Positions 5,429 through 18,605 of a stretch of DNA of 50,696 bases are shown here, in pieces. The DNA lies in assembly GCA_937129395.1 (NCBI GenBank), contig CAKZNE010000144.1, positions 1-50,696 on the forward strand. Direction: 5' to 3'. The notes under the pieces were generated by a model, which was not told where the DNA came from, did no database searches, and worked only from the letters and a program-made list of their open reading frames with translations. Both the position numbers and the translations under genes were made by a program. The number at the start of each line of letters is the position of its first letter. The first letter of the stretch is position 1. This stretch comes from an uncultured Cryomorphaceae bacterium (lineage in GTDB: Bacteria; Bacteroidota; Bacteroidia; Flavobacteriales; Schleiferiaceae).

Positions 5429-7042
5429 ATGAATTTCACTGAAATAAAACCGGAAAACTCAAACCTTGAGAAGTACGGAATTAGAGAAGCAAAAGCCTTG
5501 TGGAACCTTAGCCCATCAGATTTGGAAGCAATTTCCATTGATAGAGGAATGGCGGTAAGGTCTGCTTCAGGAGCAATTGCAATCGACACAGGTGAGTTTA
5601 CCGGTAGATCCCCGAAAGACCGTTTTATTGTTGAGGATGAATTAACAAAAGACGCTGTATGGTGGGGAGATATCAATATCAAATTTGATTCTAAAAAGTT
5701 TGATAAATTAAATTCTAAAATCGCTGATTACCTTAGTGGCAAAGAAGTTTTTGTACGCGACGTGTATGCCTGTGCAGACGAGCGTTACAAAATGAAAATT
5801 AGAGTAATCAACGAATTGCCCTGGTCTAATATGTTTGCAAACAACATGTTTCTAAGACCAAGCGAGGAAGAGTTGAAAGATTTTGAGCCTGACTGGGTAA
5901 TTGTTAATGCTCCTGGTTTTATGGCCAATGCGGAAGAAGATGGCACTCGTCAGCATAATTTCGCAATCCTAAACTTTACAGAGCAAATGGCTATTATTGG
6001 TGGAACTGGTTATACTGGTGAAATCAAAAAAGGAATTTTCTCCGCTCTGAACTTTATTTTACCTCATCAAAAAGAAGTATTATCCATGCACTGTTCTGCC
6101 AATGTTGGCGAAGAAGGAGATACTGCTTTATTCTTTGGTTTGTCTGGTACTGGTAAAACTACCTTATCGGCAGATCCAAATAGAAAATTGATTGGAGATG
6201 ATGAGCATGGTTGGACAAAAGACAATGTAATCTTCAATTTTGAAGGTGGTTGCTACGCCAAGGTTATTGACCTTAGTGAAGAAAAGGAACCAGATATTTT
6301 TAAAGCCATCAAACCTGGAGCTTTATTAGAGAACATCACTTTTAATGAAGGTGGAAACACTGTAAATTATGAGGATGGAAGCAAAACAGAAAACACAAGA
6401 GTAAGTTACCCTATTGAGCATATCAATAATATTCAGGTTCCTTCACTTGGTAAAAACCCCAAAAACATTTTTTTCCTTACCTGTGATGCTTATGGAGTTT
6501 TACCTCCAATTTCTAAACTTACCCCAGGCCAAGCGGCTTTTCATTTTATTAGCGGATATACCGCAAAAGTTGCAGGTACCGAGGCTGGGATTACGGAACC
6601 ACAAGTTGCTTTCTCTGCTTGTTTTGGCGCACCGTTTATGCCTTTGCATCCGACCAAGTACGCGGATATGTTGAGCAAGAAAATGAAAGATGCGAATGTA
6701 AATGTATGGTTGATCAACACCGGATGGTCTGCTGGCCCTTATGGAGTTGGAAAACGTATGAAGTTAAAATATACACGTGCAATGATCACCGAAGCAATTA
6801 ATGGTGGGTTGGACAATGTAGATTTTACGGAGCATGAAATTTTCGGTTTAAATATGCCAAATTCCTGTTCTAATGTTCCGGACGATATTCTGAATCCTAA
6901 GAATACATGGGCTGACAAAGCTGCTTATGATAAAACGGCATCTGAATTAGCAAATAAATTCAATGCTAATTTTAAGAAGTTTAGCGATAATGCGAGCGCA
7001 GAGATTCTTGCAGGTGCACCTAGGCTTACGGCCAAAGTGTAA
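5429..7042 (+). CDS. pckA: Phosphoenolpyruvate carboxykinase (ATP)
   Basis: GEFTGRSPKDRFIVED, MHCSANVGEEGDTALFFGLSGTGKTTLSADPNRKLIGDDEHGW (P-loop and kinase-2 of ATP-PEPCK), FEGGCYAK. Confidence 0.98.
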   Translation: MNFTEIKPENSNLEKYGIREAKALWNLSPSDLEAISIDRGMAVRSASGAIAIDTGEFTGRSPKDRFIVEDELTKDAVWWGDINIKFDSKKFDKLNSKIADYLSGKEVFVRDVYACADERYKMKIRVINELPWSNMFANNMFLRPSEEELKDFEPDWVIVNAPGFMANAEEDGTRQHNFAILNFTEQMAIIGGTGYTGEIKKGIFSALNFILPHQKEVLSMHCSANVGEEGDTALFFGLSGTGKTTLSADPNRKLIGDDEHGWTKDNVIFNFEGGCYAKVIDLSEEKEPDIFKAIKPGALLENITFNEGGNTVNYEDGSKTENTRVSYPIEHINNIQVPSLGKNPKNIFFLTCDAYGVLPPISKLTPGQAAFHFISGYTAKVAGTEAGITEPQVAFSACFGAPFMPLHPTKYADMLSKKMKDANVNVWLINTGWSAGPYGVGKRMKLKYTRAMITEAINGGLDNVDFTEHEIFGLNMPNSCSNVPDDILNPKNTWADKAAYDKTASELANKFNANFKKFSDNASAEILAGAPRLTAKV

Positions 7043-8406: not shown

Positions 8407-10125
8407 ATGAAAAAATTAATTTTTGCCTTTATGGCATCTGGGCTCATTTTCGCTTCCTGTTCCAAAACAGAAGTGGTTAGTCCTAGCGCATCAAACAACA
8501 CACCTGGAGCTACTAATCTTGGCGATTTAGTAATTCCTGCAGACTTCAATTGGAGTAGCAGTAAAAAAGGTGGACTTACAGTAACTTTAAACCCAGATTT
8601 ACCTGCATTTGCCGCAGAAGGTCAAGAGATTTGGATTACTGATGATGCCGGTACTATTTTGGATCGTGCATTTGTAAAAAATAACGAAGCTGAATTTTAC
8701 TATACTATTCCTCAAGAAAAAGGTTCTTACAAACTTTACCTTCCGGCTACTAAAGACGAAATGGCTTTAGAAGGATCCGGTAATGTTACAATGAATGTGC
8801 TTACCGACATTATTGGAGATTCTATTGCTTTAATGCAAAGAGCTACCAACTCAAGTGGTAAAAAAGCCTCTGGCAAAACTGCTGTTCCTGTTAATCTATT
8901 GATTAATGGTGATATGGAAGTAAATGATTTCGGTGTTTATAATGGTGGAAACTCCATAAACAATACTGGAAAATGGTGGAACTATTATTATTCCAACCGC
9001 CACCAATGGAAAAACATTAATGGAAACAGAGTATATAAGGCTACCCATAATAATGGAGCTGATGTACTTCAATCTGTTGCAGTTACTCCTGGAGACCAAT
9101 ATACTATGAGCGCCGTAACTGGTGGTACTTTTTGCTACTATGTTTATTTTAAAACAGCTAACGGATCTTTAATTAGTTATGTAGGGTATAACCCAACTAA
9201 TAATATTATCAACGAAACTGGAGTAATTCCAGCAAATGCGGCTTACGCATTAATTTACCTTCACGGAGGAAAAAACAAATGGATTGATGATGTAGTATTC
9301 GCAACTGAATCTTCTGTTGTTGATACAGATGGTGATGGTGAACCAGATGACACAGACGATTATCCAAATGATCCTGCGAGAGCATTTACTTCTTATTTCC
9401 CAACTGCTGGTTACCAAACACTTTCTTTTGAAGATTTATGGCCTGCACAAGGTGACTTTGATATGAATGACATGGTATTGAATACCAATGTAGTTTATAC
9501 CTCTCATGCAAACAATGATAGAGTTGATGCTACTTTTACAATTGATGTAGAAGCTGTTGGAGCAGGTTATGCAAATGGTCTTGCCATTGTATTTACTGAT
9601 GCCAACAAACAGCCACTCGCTCAAAGTATTGTAAGCGGTGTAACAGGAGATGCCTCTTTAGATCCAGATGTAACAAATGGTATTATTGTATTTAATGATG
9701 TGTATCAAGCACAAACAGAGTATTACCAGAATAATGGTGTAGGACCATCTTTACCGGCGGAAACTTTTAGCTTTACAGTTAGCTTTAACGCTAATGCAGG
9801 AAGTCAGGCAATTGTTCCAGACATCTATATCTTTAGATCTAATAATAGAGGCTTGGAAATTCACCTTGATGGATTTTTAGGAACTTCTGAAGCAAATCCT
9901 AGCTTATACAATACAGTAGATGATGTTAACGGAACTTATTCTACTTTAACAGGATTACCATGGGCTCTTGAGGTTATTACTCCAGATAAATCTTACAAGC
10001 ACCCATTAGAGTATATCGATATTTTAGTTGCCTATCCTAGTTTCCAAGGTTGGGCAGAATCTTCAGGATCCTCAAACCAAACCTGGTTAGACAACCCTGT
10101 ACCGTCTAAAATCTTCGGCCTATAA
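8407..10125 (+). CDS. LruC domain-containing lipoprotein (paralogue 1)
   Basis: Lipobox FASCSK; DTDGDGEPDDTDDYPNDP calcium-binding-like stretch; LruC-like region YQTLSFEDLWPAQGDFDMNDMVLN...FTIDVEAVGAGYANGLAIVFTD. Confidence 0.88.
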   Translation: MKKLIFAFMASGLIFASCSKTEVVSPSASNNTPGATNLGDLVIPADFNWSSSKKGGLTVTLNPDLPAFAAEGQEIWITDDAGTILDRAFVKNNEAEFYYTIPQEKGSYKLYLPATKDEMALEGSGNVTMNVLTDIIGDSIALMQRATNSSGKKASGKTAVPVNLLINGDMEVNDFGVYNGGNSINNTGKWWNYYYSNRHQWKNINGNRVYKATHNNGADVLQSVAVTPGDQYTMSAVTGGTFCYYVYFKTANGSLISYVGYNPTNNIINETGVIPANAAYALIYLHGGKNKWIDDVVFATESSVVDTDGDGEPDDTDDYPNDPARAFTSYFPTAGYQTLSFEDLWPAQGDFDMNDMVLNTNVVYTSHANNDRVDATFTIDVEAVGAGYANGLAIVFTDANKQPLAQSIVSGVTGDASLDPDVTNGIIVFNDVYQAQTEYYQNNGVGPSLPAETFSFTVSFNANAGSQAIVPDIYIFRSNNRGLEIHLDGFLGTSEANPSLYNTVDDVNGTYSTLTGLPWALEVITPDKSYKHPLEYIDILVAYPSFQGWAESSGSSNQTWLDNPVPSKIFGL

Positions 10126-10194: not shown

Positions 10195-10477
10195 ATACAT
10201 GAAATTTCCCATTTTCGAGGGTAGCCTTTTTTTAGGATAAGCATAAATTACAAATCGCAATTTTGCAATATGGAGACTAACCCACGTGGGTGGTTTTTTT
10301 TGTTCTATCTTTATGTTTCCATAAATCTTAATACACATTCTGGAATCAATTCCCAAAATAGGAATTTGCATTTTTCAGCTCAAAGCTTAAAACGCTTTAT
10401 TACAGGTAATTAAGTAAACGAAAAGTTTTGGACTATTTATTTCTATAATCCAATTCTACTATTGAAAAAAAATGATA

Positions 10478-12193
10478 ATGAAAAAACTGATAACATTTTT
10501 ACTAGCCGCAGTTTTTATAATGTCGTGCGATAAGCAAGAAGATTATACACCTAATTTATTAAGTACAGTAAATGCTCCAAATGCAGAAGATTTGGATGAT
10601 ATTATTATTCCACAAAATTTTAATTGGAGCAGTAGTTATAAAGGAACGCTTAGCGTAAGCTTAGATGCAAATAGTGCATTAAATACGAATGGTGCCCCGA
10701 TTCATATTACCAATCTAAGTGGTGAGATTCTGGACCGGGCTGTAATTGAGAATAATGAAGCTGAATTCTATTATAACATACCTCAAAATGACGAAAGAAT
10801 TTTTCTAAAATACCCAAACACTGGGGAATCCGTAGAAATACTAAACCAAGAAAATATAATTCTTCCTGTAGGAAAAGAGGATAGAGATATTGAAAGAGAT
10901 AGCACATTTGTTGGCTCTGGAAAAAAAGGGAAAGCAATTGTAGCTAAAACAGCGGCCAATGTTTTGGTAAATGGAGATTTCACAGTGAACGATATTGGTT
11001 TTGATGGGAGTAGCGAATATGATGTACGAACTCCAGGGAAATGGTATGCTCAGGATAGTGATGGGGAATGGGTTGACAATTCTGGAAACGGTGTTTACAA
11101 GTCCAAAAAGAATAATAAATGGGGGACTATTATGCAATCTGTAGCTGCCAGTCCAAATGCACCTTATTCAGCCTCTTTTACCTACACAGGAAATAGCAAT
11201 AAAGTTACAGGTTATGTGGATTTTTTCGATTCCAACGACAATTGGATTTCCTATAAAAATTTCTCAGAAAGTAGTGGGAATGCAACTGCATCAGGAACTA
11301 CTCCAAACAATTGTGCCTACGTTCAAATCTATATAAAACAAAAGAAAAAAGGATATATAGATGATGTGGTTTTGGATATGACTGTGCCAAATGCTGATTC
11401 CGATGGTGATGGAGTTATAGACAGTAATGATGAATTTCCAAATGACCCAACAAAGGCCTATACCAGTAAATTCCCAACTAGCGGATATCAAACATTAGCT
11501 TTTGAAGATTTATGGCCAGCGAAAGGAGATTTTGATTTCAATGATATGGTTGTTTCCAATCAAGTTGTGTACGGGTTGGATGCAAATGGTGATAAAGTTG
11601 ACGCTACCTTTACTATTAGTTTGGATGCTGCTGGATCGGGTTTTTCAAATGGATTAGCTGTTGTATTTACCGATGGTAACCGCCAAGCCATAAATCAGAG
11701 TATTATAACCAGTGTAAGTGGCGACGCTTCCTTAGACCCTAATGTTCCTAATGGTGTAATTGTTTTCAATGATGTTTTCTTAGCACAAACTAATTTTTAC
11801 CAAAACAACGGTGTAGGTTTATCTGGAACTCCCGATGTTTTTACTTTTACAATAGTCTTTAATTCAGCGGTAAACAATCAGGTAATTATTCCAGATACTT
11901 ATATTTTCAGAACCTTAACACGTGGGCAAGAGGTTCATTTAGATGGCTTTACAGGAACACCAGCTGCTAATTCAAGTTTCAATAATACAATTGATGATGT
12001 TAGTGGAACTTACAATACTGACACAGGGCTACCTTGGGCAATAGAAATAGTTACAGCGAACAAAACATTCCAACATCCAAATGAAAAAGTTGATATCTTA
12101 TTGGCCTACCCAGGCTTTCAACTTTGGGCCGAAAATGGTGGTGGAGTAAATACAACTTGGGTAACTAGTCCGGTGCCTGGATTGGTATTTTAG
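10478..12193 (+). CDS. LruC domain-containing lipoprotein (paralogue 2)
   Basis: Lipobox FIMSCDK; DSDGDGVIDSNDEFPNDP; YQTLAFEDLWPAKGDFDFNDMVVSNQVVY; clear full-length similarity to the preceding gene. Start set at the second Met of MIMKK. Confidence 0.88.
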   Translation: MKKLITFLLAAVFIMSCDKQEDYTPNLLSTVNAPNAEDLDDIIIPQNFNWSSSYKGTLSVSLDANSALNTNGAPIHITNLSGEILDRAVIENNEAEFYYNIPQNDERIFLKYPNTGESVEILNQENIILPVGKEDRDIERDSTFVGSGKKGKAIVAKTAANVLVNGDFTVNDIGFDGSSEYDVRTPGKWYAQDSDGEWVDNSGNGVYKSKKNNKWGTIMQSVAASPNAPYSASFTYTGNSNKVTGYVDFFDSNDNWISYKNFSESSGNATASGTTPNNCAYVQIYIKQKKKGYIDDVVLDMTVPNADSDGDGVIDSNDEFPNDPTKAYTSKFPTSGYQTLAFEDLWPAKGDFDFNDMVVSNQVVYGLDANGDKVDATFTISLDAAGSGFSNGLAVVFTDGNRQAINQSIITSVSGDASLDPNVPNGVIVFNDVFLAQTNFYQNNGVGLSGTPDVFTFTIVFNSAVNNQVIIPDTYIFRTLTRGQEVHLDGFTGTPAANSSFNNTIDDVSGTYNTDTGLPWAIEIVTANKTFQHPNEKVDILLAYPGFQLWAENGGGVNTTWVTSPVPGLVF

Positions 12194-12203
12194 TTATAGA
12201 AAA

Positions 12204-12254
12204 AAACAAGAAAAAAGGGATCCTGATTTATTCAAGATCCCTTTTTTCTTGTTT
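12204..12254. terminator. Bidirectional terminator between convergent lruC paralogue 2 and metF
   Basis: Perfect 19-bp inverted repeat AAACAAGAAAAAAGGGATC / GATCCCTTTTTTCTTGTTT with a 13-nt spacer; the metF stop codon lies at its edge. Confidence 0.85.
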
Positions 12255-13206
12255 AAAATATTTCCTTTGCAATCTTTTGAATATTATCAACCTTTCCCAT
12301 GGAATAAAAGTGCAAGACGGGAACTTTCGCAGCCTTTAATTCTTTGCATTGTTCTATCGCCCACTCTACTCCAACTTGGCGCACTTCTTTATTATCCTTA
12401 CAATTTAAAACCTCCCTTACAAGGTTGTCAGGAAGGTCCACATGAAATCTATGAGGCAAAATACTTAGGTGTTTTTTAGTGGCAATTGGTTTTATTCCTG
12501 GGATAATCGGCACCGTAATTCCGGCATCTCTGCATTTTTCAACATATTCAAAATACTTGGAATTATCAAAAAACAATTGGGTAACAATATAATCCGCGCC
12601 AGCGTCAACTTTCTTTTTTAAATGGGCAATATCATTGTTAATACTTGGGGCTTCAAAATGTTTTTCTGGGTAACCAGCTACTCCAATTGAAAAATTGGTT
12701 GGAGTATTATTTTGCAATTCAGAATCTAAATATATTCCCTTGTTCATGGCATTGACTTGCCCAACTAATTCATGAGCATATTTATGTCCATTAGCCTCAG
12801 CTTGAAAATAAACCTCCCCTTTTACGGAGTCACCCCTCAGCGCCAAAACATTTTCAATGCCAAGGAAATCCAAATCAATTAAGGCATTTTCTGTATCCTC
12901 TTGATTAAAACCACCACAAAGAATGTGGGGGACTGCATCAATTTTATATTTATGTTGCAGTGCCGCACAAATCCCAACAGTTCCCGGTCTTTTCTTGATA
13001 ACCTTTTGTTCCAATAAACCACTTTCCAAACGTTTATAAACAACCTCCTCTCTATGGTAGGTTACATTTACAAATGGCGGGTTAAAATCCATTAGAGGAT
13101 CAATATTGTTGTAAATATTTTGAATGTTTTGCCCTTTTAATGGGGGCAAAATCTCAAATGAAAAAATGGTTTTATCGGATCCGTTGATATGGTCAATTAC
13201 TTTCAT
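12253..13206 (-). CDS. metF: Methylenetetrahydrofolate reductase
   Basis: FSFEILPPLKGQ, FVNVTYHREE, PHILCGG, LALRGDS, GVAGYPEKH, DYIVTQLFFDN, PIIPGIKP. Confidence 0.96.
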   Translation of the reverse strand: MKVIDHINGSDKTIFSFEILPPLKGQNIQNIYNNIDPLMDFNPPFVNVTYHREEVVYKRLESGLLEQKVIKKRPGTVGICAALQHKYKIDAVPHILCGGFNQEDTENALIDLDFLGIENVLALRGDSVKGEVYFQAEANGHKYAHELVGQVNAMNKGIYLDSELQNNTPTNFSIGVAGYPEKHFEAPSINNDIAHLKKKVDAGADYIVTQLFFDNSKYFEYVEKCRDAGITVPIIPGIKPIATKKHLSILPHRFHVDLPDNLVREVLNCKDNKEVRQVGVEWAIEQCKELKAAKVPVLHFYSMGKVDNIQKIAKEIF

Positions 13207-13216
13207 ATAGTACTTT

Positions 13217-15859
13217 TTAATAGTTTAATGATGGCCTTAACCAACGTTCTGCTTCTTCTTGGGAAATGGATTTTCGTTTGGCATAATCTTCCAACTGATC
13301 TTTTCCAATTTTACCCAATCCAAAATATTTACTTTCTGGATGTGCCAAATAATAACCGGAAACTGAAGAAGCCGGATGCATTGCCAAATTATCCGTTAGG
13401 CTAATACCAATTGTTTCGGCAGATAATAGTTTGAAAATGGTTTTCTTTTCGAGGTGATCTGGACAAGCAGGATAACCGGGAGCTGGCCTTATCCCTAAAT
13501 ATTTTTCGCGAATCAATTCATCATTTTTCAAGTTTTCATCCGGGCAATAGCCCCAAATTTCAGTTCTTACTTTTTGATGAAGCATTTCCGCTAATCCTTC
13601 TGCCAATCTATCGGCAAGGGCTTTTATCATAATAGATTTGTAATCATCATGATCCTTTTGGTATTGCTCTAATAAGCTTTCAATGCCAAGTCCGGCTGTT
13701 ACAGCAAAACATCCAATATAATCCTGAATTCCACTTTCCAAAGGGGCGATAAAATCACCTAGGGCTATATTTTTGGCAATGGCCGCTTTTTGCGTTTGTT
13801 GCCTTAAGGTTCTAAATTGAAATTCTCCATTATTAACGGAAATATCATCACCTATGGAATTTGCTGGAAAAATTCCCAATGCCGCATTGGCTGTTAGCGC
13901 ATTCCCAACAAGCAATTCTTCCAACATATCTTGAGCATCCTGATAAAGTGATTTCGCGGCTTCGCCAACGACTTCATCCTCCAAGATTCTAGGGAACTTA
14001 CCATGTAGTTCCCAGGTCATAAAAAAGGGAGTCCAGTCGATAAAGGGAACTATTTCACTAAGTGGAATGTTTTCCATTTTTTTTACTCCAATAAAATTGG
14101 GCTTTTTAATGTTTTGAGAATTAAAATCAAGGCGAAGTTTGTTCTTCCTAGCCTCTTCAATTTTCAAATATTTTTTTGATGATGAATTGTTTAAATAGCC
14201 ATCTCTGAGTTTCGTGTACTCTATCTTTAAATTTTCTTTAAATCCAGAATGTGAGGATTTTGAAGAAAGGGTTTGAGCTATGGGTACACTGCGGCTGGCG
14301 TCATTAACATGAACTGCTATTCCAGAATACTCCGGAAAAATTTTCACTGCCGTATGGGCCCTTGAAGTGGTCGCTCCTCCAATCATCAGGGGGGTATTCA
14401 ATTTCCTTCTTTCCATTTCTTGGGCCACATATATCATCTCGTCCAAGGAAGGAGTTATTAAACCACTAAGTCCAATGGCATCCACATTTTCCTCTATTGC
14501 GGTATCTAATATTTTGTTCATTGGCACCATTACACCAAGGTCAATTATCTCAAAATTATTACAGGCCAAAACTACCCCAACAATGTTTTTCCCAATATCA
14601 TGAACATCACCCTTTACGGTGGCCATCAAAATTTTTCCTTTCTTTTTGGATTCTCCATGAGCTTCTTTTTCCTCTTCAATAAAAGGAGTTAAATAAGCTA
14701 CAGCCTTTTTCATAACTCTTGCAGACTTCACAACTTGGGGTAAAAACATTTTTCCAGACCCAAATAAATCTCCAACCACATTCATTCCATCCATTAATGG
14801 ACCTTCAATTACCTCTATGGTTTTTGTTGCTAAGACTCTGGCCTCCTCAGCATCCTCTTCAATAAAATCAGTTATACCTTTTACAAGTGAATATTCAATC
14901 CTTTTGGCCACAACTTGCTCTCTCCAACTTAAATCTTTTTCACGTGTTTTTTGGGTACCTACAAAATCCTCAGCAAATTCCAATAGCCGTTCGGTTGAAT
15001 CATCCCTTCTATCGAGAAGAACATCCTCCACCCTTTCCAATAAATTTTTTGGTATTTCCTCGTAAACTTCTAGCATGGCAGGATTTACAATTCCCATATC
15101 CATCCCGTTTTTTATACCATGATATAAAAAAGCAGAATGCATGGCTTCTCGAACCGATTGATTTCCTCGAAAACTAAAAGAAACATTACTTACACCTCCG
15201 CTTACTTTGGCTCCTGGCAAATTCCTTTTTATCCACTTTGTAGCCTCGAAAAAATCAATTGCATTTCTTCTGTGTTCTTCTATTCCTGTTGCAACCGGGA
15301 ATATGTTTGGATCAAAAATAATGTCCTCTTTTGGAAACTTTATTTCTTCAACTAACAACTTATAGGACCTTTCACAAATCTCTATTCGCCTTTTATAGTT
15401 ATCCGCTTGGCCATCTTCATCAAAGGCCATTACTACAACGGCCGCCCCATACCTTTTTATCAGTTTGGCTTGTTTTATAAATTCTTCCACTCCTCCCTTC
15501 AGACTAATGGAATTCACAACGGCCTTTCCTTGAACACACTTTAAGCCTGCTTCAATAATTTCCCATTTCGAAGAATCTACCATTATTGGAACTCTAGAAA
15601 TATCTGGTTCGGATGCAATTAGGTTTAGGAATTCAACCATGGCCTTTTTGCCATCGAGCATTCCTTCATCCATATTCACATCAATAATCTGAGCACCCCC
15701 CTCTACTTGATCTCTGGCCACAGCAAGGGCTTCATCTAATTGGTTTTCTTTTATTAACCGAAGAAATTTTCTAGAACCTGTGACATTCGTTCTTTCTCCA
15801 ATATTTATAAAATTACTTGCCTTATTTATATTTAATGGCTCTAATCCGCTTAGTTTCAT
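13217..15859 (-). CDS. metH: Methionine synthase, C-terminal portion (pterin-binding, cobalamin-binding and activation domains)
   Basis: [14 protein letters not shown] (pterin-binding), [31 protein letters not shown] (cobalamin DxHxxG), [14 protein letters not shown] (AdoMet activation domain). Confidence 0.96.
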
Positions 15860-15862
15860 AAT

Positions 15863-16876
15863 CTAATTTCCCTTAGTTGCCATTAATTGCCTTGGTTTAT
15901 AATCCTTTGCTACATTAGCTATAGCCTGAATGTGTTCTGGAGTAGTACCACAACAGCCTCCAATAATATTGATTAATTCCAAATCCAAATATTCCTTTAT
16001 TAATTCAGCCATTTCCTCAGGTGTTTGTTCGTATTCTCCAAAGGCATTTGGCAATCCTGCATTAGGATGAGCGCTGATATTAAATTTACTTTCTCTGGAA
16101 ATGACTTGTAAATAAGGTCTTAATTGATCCGCCCCTAAAGCGCAATTAAAACCAATGGAAAAAAGTGGTAAATGCGACATACTTATTAAAAAAGCTTCAG
16201 CAGTTTGTCCAGATAAAGTCCGCCCACTTGCGTCGGTAATAGTTCCCGAAACCATTATTGGAATTTCCTTTCCCAATTCCTCAAACAGACCGCTAATCGC
16301 AAATAAAGCAGCCTTGGCGTTTAATGTGTCAAAAATTGTTTCCACCAAAAAAGCATCAACTCCGCCATGGAAAAGAGCTTTTGCTTGCTCATAATAAGAC
16401 TCTGCAAGCTGGTCGAAATTCACAGCTCTAAAGCCTGGATTGTTTACGTCGGGGGAAAGGCTAGCCGTTTTCGTAGTTGGGCCAATTGAACCTAAAACGA
16501 ATCTCGGCTTATTCGGTTCCTTTTTGGTAAACTCATTTGCAACCTCTTTGGCGATTCGAGCGGATTCATAATTAATTTCATATACGAGATCCTCCATTCC
16601 ATAATCCGCCATGGAAATTTTATTGGAATTAAAAGTGTTAGTTTCAATAAGATCTGCACCGAAAGCAAAATATTTTGAATGAATCTCCTTAATTATTTCG
16701 GGCTGGGTTAAACTTAATAGATCATTATTTCCTTTAAGGTCCGATTCAAAATTTTCAAATCTCTTAGATCTATAATCCTTTTCACCTAGTTTATAGGCTT
16801 GGATCATCGTTCCCATAGCTCCATCTAAAATTAGAATTCGCTTTTTTGCCTCCCTTATTAATAAATTTTCTTCCAT
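15863..16876 (-). CDS. metH: Homocysteine S-methyltransferase (methionine synthase N-terminal domain as a separate gene)
   Basis: [61 protein letters not shown] (zinc-binding GGCCGT). Confidence 0.94.
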
Positions 16877-16938
16877 TTTAAGTTTGTTTCTAAACCTATC
16901 CTGAAAGCCAGTAAAATTGAGATTGTCTTACGATCGTT

Positions 16939-17042
16939 CTCATCTTTCTCAATCACTAATGTTCTTGAGTAGGAGGTAGCACCCAGCCTGGCTGGGTTGC
17001 TAAGACTTCAAAGGGCCTATTCCCTCAGTCTTTCTGGATAAG
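16939..17042 (-). ncRNA. SAM-I (S-box) riboswitch upstream of split metH-metF
   Basis: Reverse strand reads CTTATCCAGAAAGACTGAGGGAATAGGCCCTTTGAAGTCTTAGCAACCCAGCCAGGCTGGGTGCTACCTCCTACTCAAGAACATTAGTGATTGAGAAAGATGAG. Pairings: P1 CUUAUC/GAUGAG, P2 AAGAC/GUCUU, P3 GGGU-type arms after GCAACC, P4 CUCAA/UUGAG. The hallmark AGGGA..GGCCC..GAAG..GCAACC..GGTGCTA..CC is present. Confidence 0.95.
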
Positions 17043-17224
17043 TTCAACAAATAAAGCCTATTTTATATTACAATCAAAATTCCATTCCAATAAAAAAGTG
17101 ATTGACAGAATCTATATTCACCCTAGCTCACCCCTGTGGCCAATTAAATCCTAAAAAAAAGTTTTGACATTCAATTCCACCAATTATTCTTTTTAATAAG
17201 AGAATGGAAAGTCAAATATTATTT

Positions 17225-17232
17225 TACTTTTG
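17225..17232 (+). promoter_or_regulatory. Candidate -7 box (TACTTTTG) for metK
   Basis: Exact TAnnTTTG a few nt upstream of the SAM-II aptamer; the -33 element is weak. Confidence 0.5.
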
Positions 17233-17238
17233 CGCTCT

Positions 17239-17290
17239 ATGTGGAATAATTTGACTGCTTGCAACCACGAAAAAAAATGCTAAATCAGCA
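17239..17290 (+). ncRNA. SAM-II riboswitch upstream of metK
   Basis: ATGTGGAATAATTTGACTGCTTGCAACCACGAAAAAAAATGCTAAATCAGCA. P1 GUGG/CCAC; conserved AUUUGAC, CUUGCAA and UGCUAAA segments; pseudoknot pairing GC/GC plus CUG(17254-17256 region)/CAG(17286-17288) as expected for P2. Confidence 0.85.
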
Positions 17291-17351
17291 TCCAGTGTCT
17301 ACACTCAGTCAAAAAAATTTCACTTTTATTTAGATATAATAAGTTTAATTT

Positions 17352-18605
17352 ATGGCATATTTATTCACCTCTGAGTCCGTTTCAGAAGGTCATCCCGATA
17401 AAATTTCAGATCAAATTTCCGACGCAATAATTGATCATTTCTTAGCTTTTGATAGAGAATCTAAAGTTGCTTGTGAAACCCTAGTAACTACCGGTCAGGT
17501 TATTTTGGCAGGAGAAATAAAATCTCAAGCTTATGTAGATGTTCAATCTGTGGCAAGGGATGTAATAAAACGTATTGGCTACACAAAAAGTGAATATATG
17601 TTTGATGCAGAAAGCTGTGGTGTTTTATCCGCTTTGCATGAACAATCTCCGGATATAAATCGTGGTGTAGATCGTGGAAATCCTGAAGACCAAGGTGCGG
17701 GTGATCAAGGGATGATGTTTGGATATGCAACCAATGAAACTGAAAACTATATGCCTTTGGCTTTAGACCTAAGTCATAAGATTTTAATTGAATTAGCTGC
17801 AATGCGCAGGGAGTGTTCGGATATTCCCTACTTAAGGCCAGATGCTAAATCTCAGGTTACAATTGAATATTCGGACTCTCATGTACCTCAAAAAATAACT
17901 GACATTGTTGTTTCTACACAGCATGATGATTTTGGGGATGAAAAAAGTATGACTCAGAAAATTCATAAAGATATTGTTGAGCTGCTCATTCCTCGAGTAA
18001 AGAGTAAGCTAAAGCCAGAGCTACAAAAATTGTTTGACGGGAATATTAATTACCATATTAATCCAACAGGTAAGTTTGTAATTGGTGGACCTCATGGTGA
18101 TGCTGGACTTACCGGGAGAAAAATTATCGTTGACACATACGGTGGAAAAGGGGCTCACGGAGGAGGAGCTTTTTCAGGAAAAGATCCAAGTAAGGTAGAC
18201 CGTTCTGCCGCTTACGCAACAAGGCATATTGCAAAAAATGTTGTTGCAGCAGGTGTTGCTGATCAGATTCTTGTTCAGGTTTCTTACGCAATTGGTGTTG
18301 TTGAGCCTATGGGAATTTTTGTGGATACTTATGGTACTGCAAAAGTAAATCTGACAGATGGCGAGATAGCGGAGAAGATTTCAAAAATATTTGATATGAG
18401 ACCAGGTCTAATTGAACAGAGGTTAAAATTAAGAAACCCAATGTACTCAGAAACTGCGGCTTATGGACATATGGGAAGGAAAAACGAAACAGTTTCCAAA
18501 TCCTTTCAAGAGGCTAATGGAAAAGAAATTAAGCTAGATGTGGAATTGTTCACATGGGAAAAGCTTGACTATGTGGATAAGGTAAAAGAAGCATTTGGGC
18601 TTTAA
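17352..18605 (+). CDS. metK: S-adenosylmethionine synthetase
   Basis: [76 protein letters not shown]. Confidence 0.98.

Follow-up and report, generated by a model that had tools for sequence, protein, structure and literature searches.

Two classes of SAM riboswitch back to back between metH-metF and metK in a Schleiferiaceae bacterium and its relatives

Why would a single intergenic region carry two unrelated RNA sensors of the same metabolite, pointing away from each other, and how might each of them act on the gene that it faces? The question is raised by a 50,696-nucleotide stretch of DNA from an uncultured Cryomorphaceae bacterium (assembly GCA_937129395.1, contig CAKZNE010000144.1; "the window" hereafter means this whole stretch), in which an S-adenosylmethionine (SAM) riboswitch of class SAM-I faces the methionine genes, a split metH and then metF, and a riboswitch of class SAM-II faces metK (Table 1). 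When all Rfam families were run over the window with cmscan, exactly these two riboswitches were found. The SAM-I family RF00162 matches on the minus strand with 72.7 bits (E 3.3e-15; gathering cut-off 44.4 bits) along the full length of the model (1-108 of 108), and the SAM-II long-loop family RF01726 matches on the plus strand with 65.4 bits (E 1.9e-10; cut-off 44 bits), again at full length (1-60 of 60). Each is the single match of its family in the assembly (3.8 Mb, about 91% complete). Every invariant column is kept, both in the SAM-I core (alignment with 31 relatives) and in the loop and pseudoknot strands of SAM-II (alignment with 33 relatives), and the scores together with this conservation rule out spurious or chance aptamers. 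The initial annotation had described a complete SAM-I on the minus strand with helices P1 (CUUAUC/GAUGAG), P2 and P4, and, about 200 nt away on the plus strand, a SAM-II with helices GUGG/CCAC and UGCUAAAUCAG. All of these helices were found, both classes were borne out, and the spacing, measured from aptamer to aptamer, is 190 nt; the family that had been named for SAM-II has to be changed, since classical SAM-II (RF00521) has no match in the window at its gathering score and the element belongs to RF01726.

Judging from family membership, both aptamers would bind SAM, and the SAM-II of the window would form a pseudoknot. One of the two could instead be a variant for another ligand, as are the spermidine riboswitches, which derive from SAM-I (PMC10853860) and retain its fold. 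This appears very improbable here, because both scores lie far above the cut-off, the gene context is that of methionine and SAM metabolism, and all alignment-invariant positions are kept, in an alignment-wide comparison rather than one of variant sites one by one.

The divergent SAM-I/SAM-II pair recurs in many relatives, so that it is not a one-off. RF01726 is present in 204 and RF00162 in 178 of 298 sampled genomes of the order, and the respective counts for the family to which the window belongs are 68 and 74 of 89; in a phylum-wide sample of 249, SAM-II long loops are rarer (39) and SAM-I is common (210). Within the family, a divergent SAM-I lies no more than 300 nt from SAM-II at 34 of 70 SAM-II places (33 of 68 genomes, five genera), with gaps of 48-190 nt. 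At 22 further places the divergent SAM-I is found at 1 to 5 kb and at one place at 9.5 kb; two pairs are on the same strand, and at the remaining places SAM-I is on another contig or absent. In the MetK tree the window groups with the same-genus genomes G194 and G224, on a branch without a star. Compact pairs also occur in three further families of the order (f3, f10 and f15), and in the loci of compact relatives homologues of MetH and MetK flank the pair as expected, as far as the contig extends. For named relatives, models built from the relatives' loci were run over 80 named metK loci. A Winogradskyella metagenome-assembled genome (MAG) has the same divergent pair, with gene order metH, metH, metF / metK and a gap of 191, and divergent pairs in which SAM-I mostly faces a metY-like gene were found in Polaribacter, including strain Hel1_85, and in one Bacteroidia MAG; both families were confirmed by Rfam at these loci. 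Such relatives suggest that the window is from Flavobacteriales.

Close spacing is common and apparently favoured, but it is not required, since tight and spaced layouts are both present within each of three genera (g1, g11 and g12). In many genomes of the order the two riboswitches are far apart. In one species of the window's own genus, 2.5 kb of unrelated genes separates SAM-I from SAM-II, and tight coupling of the two is therefore not essential. Where the aptamers of same-family genomes are 1 to 3 kb apart, unrelated genes likewise fill the interval, and their likenesses, read from sequence, are to acyl-CoA transferases, glutamate dehydrogenases and lipoproteins. It could thus be that metK and metH are old neighbours, that each inherited its own riboswitch, and that the back-to-back placement has no further function. 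The mixed layouts and the distant pairs speak for this explanation. However, orientation is divergent in 56 of the 58 same-contig pairs within 6 kb in the window's family, the gaps cluster at 64-76 nt across many genera, and Polaribacter has a similar pairing with a different partner gene, metY. We regard the chances of mere neighbourhood as about even; it concerns placement alone and is compatible with each RNA acting in the manner proposed below.

Several loci of relatives differ from this scheme or carry additional elements. In one genome, two SAM-I aptamers lie less than 400 nt apart on opposite strands (G154:C40:2576-2964; 2576-2676 minus, 2860-2964 plus), forming a divergent pair of the same class. 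One contig with a divergent SAM-I/SAM-II pair (L131) also has a match to the Flavo-1 sRNA (RF01705, 50.1 bits, 739-630 minus), and in a Polaribacter MAG (L123, 1418-5090) metH looks split into several frames, from a frameshift or an assembly error. In Flavobacterium metK leaders (L087, L089, L071, L070, L106 and L088, at about 5820-5945), the stretch between P1 and the 3' pseudoknot strand of the SAM-II long-loop aptamer is enlarged by additional hairpins, about 50 nt in all, and a simple model reads the aptamer as two hits. These double hits had suggested tandem SAM-II aptamers, a possibility that was rejected, the sequence being that of one SAM-II with inserted hairpins. Three 0.6 Mb genomes of the order (G039, G145 and G160), perhaps those of insect symbionts, still match RF01726, if weakly (E 5e-4 to 8e-4).

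What each RNA might do can be approached through the leaders. A search covering intrinsic (hairpin) terminators found none in either leader of the window, nor in a set of 78 leaders (39 SAM-I and 39 SAM-II). Flavobacterium johnsoniae is without Shine-Dalgarno sequences, and its translation initiation is governed by RNA structure around the start codon (PMC6847099). The leaders might nevertheless act by premature transcription termination rather than on translation, and Rho-dependent attenuation would be compatible with the sequence. We consider this unlikely, given that none of these leaders has a terminator-like hairpin and that conserved complementary strands adjoin the start codon.

Most SAM-I leaders repeat the P1 3' strand about 30 nt downstream of the aptamer, 20-36 nt before the start codon. 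The copy in the window, GGAUAGGUU, can form 9 bp with the P1 5' strand AACUUAUCC (-10.9 kcal/mol; shuffle p 0.002, z -4.4), and complementarity of this kind reaches p<=0.05 in 21 of 39 leaders. Covariation argues for the pairing as well: when the distal copy was picked by its constant core alone, ignoring the three flanking pairs, the flanking positions of 70 leaders made 120 Watson-Crick pairs, versus 72 upon permutation (sd 7.3, max 96, n=2000). Two-sided changes are among them, from C-G (31) to G-C (15) at nt 3 and from A-U to U-A at nt 2. If P1 is enforced, the fold of the window's leader has a hairpin that extends to the start codon, and over the set of SAM-I leaders the bound-like state is predicted to expose the start codon less than the free-like state does (27 vs 7 leaders, Wilcoxon p 7e-4).

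The SAM-II leaders have a strand 3' of the aptamer that is complementary to the P1 strand or the loop of the aptamer. Its register varies by lineage (GCCAAAUC, GCAAUC, GCAAUUAGCC, CAGUCAAA and others), a sign that the anti-aptamer function has been maintained repeatedly. Compared with dinucleotide shuffles, the complementarity has p<=0.05 in 23 of 39 leaders (mean z -2.1); Fisher p is 3.6e-14 for the set thinned to roughly one per genus and 8e-14 for 23 further named loci. The metK start codon of the window is unpaired with probability 0.82 in the whole-leader fold, where the anti-aptamer helix forms, and with probability 0.22, that is, mostly closed, when the downstream part is folded alone. 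Here too, of the two states, the bound-like one is predicted to have the less accessible start codon (29 vs 9 leaders, Wilcoxon p 7e-5).

As to where the transcripts begin, the sigma-A -7 box of Flavobacterium psychrophilum, at -12 to -5, reads TAnnTTTG (PMC9723704). Of 41 loci, 40 have this motif no more than 14 nt ahead of SAM-II, where shuffled sequences give a mean of 0.6; the looser T[AT]nnTTTG precedes SAM-I in 35 of them, against a shuffled mean of 1.8. Since -7 boxes abut nearly every aptamer, both transcripts should begin at the aptamer, which in the window would place the starts near 17237 (plus) and 17043 (minus).

From these leader features, the reading that we favour, and hold to be probable, is one of two OFF switches that act on translation independently, each transcribed from its own promoter of a divergent pair. 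Two sigma-A promoters would start RNAs almost exactly at aptamers of unrelated fold, and each RNA would act separately and in cis as an OFF switch, its target being translation initiation. When SAM is absent, the distal P1 3' copy would take the P1 5' strand in the SAM-I leader, the downstream strand would take the P1 5' strand and loop in the SAM-II leader, and either start codon would be open. With SAM bound, the aptamer would retain its own strands, and the freed downstream strand would help to form a hairpin at the start codon, so that translation would drop. At high SAM, methionine regeneration (MetH, MetF) and SAM synthesis (MetK) would thus fall together because both RNAs sense the same ligand, not because the RNAs touch; the OFF direction is itself something that we infer. 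A number of points weigh against this reading. For the window's own SAM-I leader, both states give the same accessibility from -3 to +3, 0.51, and the unconstrained minimum fold contains neither of the modelled P1 pairings. The SAM-II complementarity of the window itself is weak against shuffles (p 0.18), and the folding leaves the SAM-II pseudoknot out. Finally, the leaders are related, so the pooled p-values overstate independence, and permutation leaves ancestry in.

The initial annotation had gone further and proposed that one locus may tune both steps, through two sensors of perhaps different affinity or mechanism. That the two classes face a methionine-regeneration operon and metK stands, and this is recurrent; the coordination is weakened by tight coupling not being essential, and coordinated tuning, a difference in affinity and staged thresholds are here put forward as hypotheses. 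A coordinated module would have two thresholds: SAM-I and SAM-II would differ in SAM set point, methionine regeneration would be turned off before SAM synthesis, and in compact relatives overlapping promoters would compete for polymerase. In relatives with gaps of 48-76 nt, roughly 30-45 bp separate the two -7 boxes; the divergent promoters there must presumably overlap, and the boxes would be too close for two simultaneous polymerases. Published dissociation constants (Kd) also differ, at about 4 nM for SAM-I of yitJ and 1-10 uM for SAM-II of metA (PMC1273637). These values are from other organisms, however, and the same paper cautions that the equilibrium Kd may not set the switching point; moreover, the 190 nt gap of the window leaves room for promoters that do not overlap, and some relatives are spaced. 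We therefore see two thresholds as a rather doubtful proposition. The same doubt attaches to the wider idea that the back-to-back pair is a selected module, in which different set points, overlapping promoters in compact relatives and a shutdown in stages, first of methionine regeneration and then of SAM synthesis, would be combined with start-codon-hiding platforms suited to bacteria without Shine-Dalgarno sequences.

Table 1. Features of the locus in window coordinates; gene identities are from NCBIfam and Pfam.
Feature	Positions	Strand	Basis
SAM-I riboswitch aptamer (RF00162)	16937..17044	-	cmscan, full length; invariant columns in common with relatives
SAM-II riboswitch aptamer, long-loop family (RF01726)	17235..17293	+	cmscan, full length; invariant columns in common with relatives
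Divergent promoter region between the aptamers, 190 nt	17045..17234	.	sequence
Predicted sigma-A -7 box TACTTTTG	17225..17232	+	TAnnTTTG motif; predicted start ~17237
Predicted sigma-A -7 box TTTATTTG, one mismatch to TAnnTTTG	17048..17055	-	motif; predicted start ~17043
Anti-P1: distal P1 3' copy GGAUAGGUU, can pair with P1 5' strand AACUUAUCC	16893..16901	-	complementarity; covariation, 70 leaders
Predicted metH start-codon hairpin, formed when P1 holds its 5' strand	16870..16907 (core 16897-16880)	-	fold with P1 enforced
Aptamer strand GUGGAAU..UUUGACUG (P1 5' strand and loop), predicted partner of the anti-aptamer strand	17241..17257	+	leader minimum free energy (MFE) fold
Predicted anti-aptamer strand CAGUCAAA(AAA)AUUUCAC of the metK leader; 8 + 7 bp with the aptamer	17306..17323	+	MFE fold; cross-lineage enrichment
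metK, methionine adenosyltransferase (SAM synthetase)	17352..18605	+	TIGR01034, 510.7 bits
metH, N-terminal part, homocysteine S-methyltransferase domain	15863..16876	-	PF02574
metH, C-terminal part: pterin-binding, B12-binding and activation domains	13217..15859	-	TIGR02082, 1207.6 bits
metF, methylenetetrahydrofolate reductase	12253..13206	-	TIGR00676, 317.3 bits

Beside metF, the window has two adjacent paralogous proteins with LruC domain / DUF4842 (8407-10125 and 10472-12193).

No prior description of the divergent SAM-I/SAM-II arrangement or of these expression platforms was found in the open-access literature, and a term search of a 2022 review (PMC9481103) gave no mention of divergent pairs of SAM classes. 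The pairing is best described as a recurrent arrangement of known parts, with an expression platform on each side that is newly inferred. With the S box SAM-I (RF00162) the window shares a complete aptamer, methionine genes and the expected OFF logic, but the classic Gram-positive platform is a terminator/antiterminator, whereas the platform here would be translational, a distal P1 3' copy competing for the P1 5' strand. With the SAM-II long loops (RF01726; Weinberg et al. 2010, PMC2864571) it shares a complete aptamer and an origin in Bacteroidetes, the context in the window being metK; the available part of that paper gives no expression platform or divergent partner. Tandem SAM riboswitches (SAM-II/SAM-V, and SAM-II with SAM-I/IV), which the review lists, also bring two classes of SAM sensor to one locus. 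Those tandems, however, are in one transcript before one gene, and a tandem riboswitch was rejected for the window, where the aptamers are on opposite strands before different genes. The locus is a natural side-by-side comparison, within the same cell and the same intergenic region, of two RNAs of unrelated fold that would sense one metabolite at two steps of one cycle. It also yields a concrete model, backed by covariation, of how riboswitches may govern translation where, as in this phylum, Shine-Dalgarno sequences are lacking. Lastly, Barrick and Breaker (2007, PMC2258182) reported both SAM-I and SAM-II in Bacteroidetes and found no species with both; the present genomes update that statement, since over half of the genomes sampled from the order carry SAM-I, over half carry SAM-II, and the two occur together in many.
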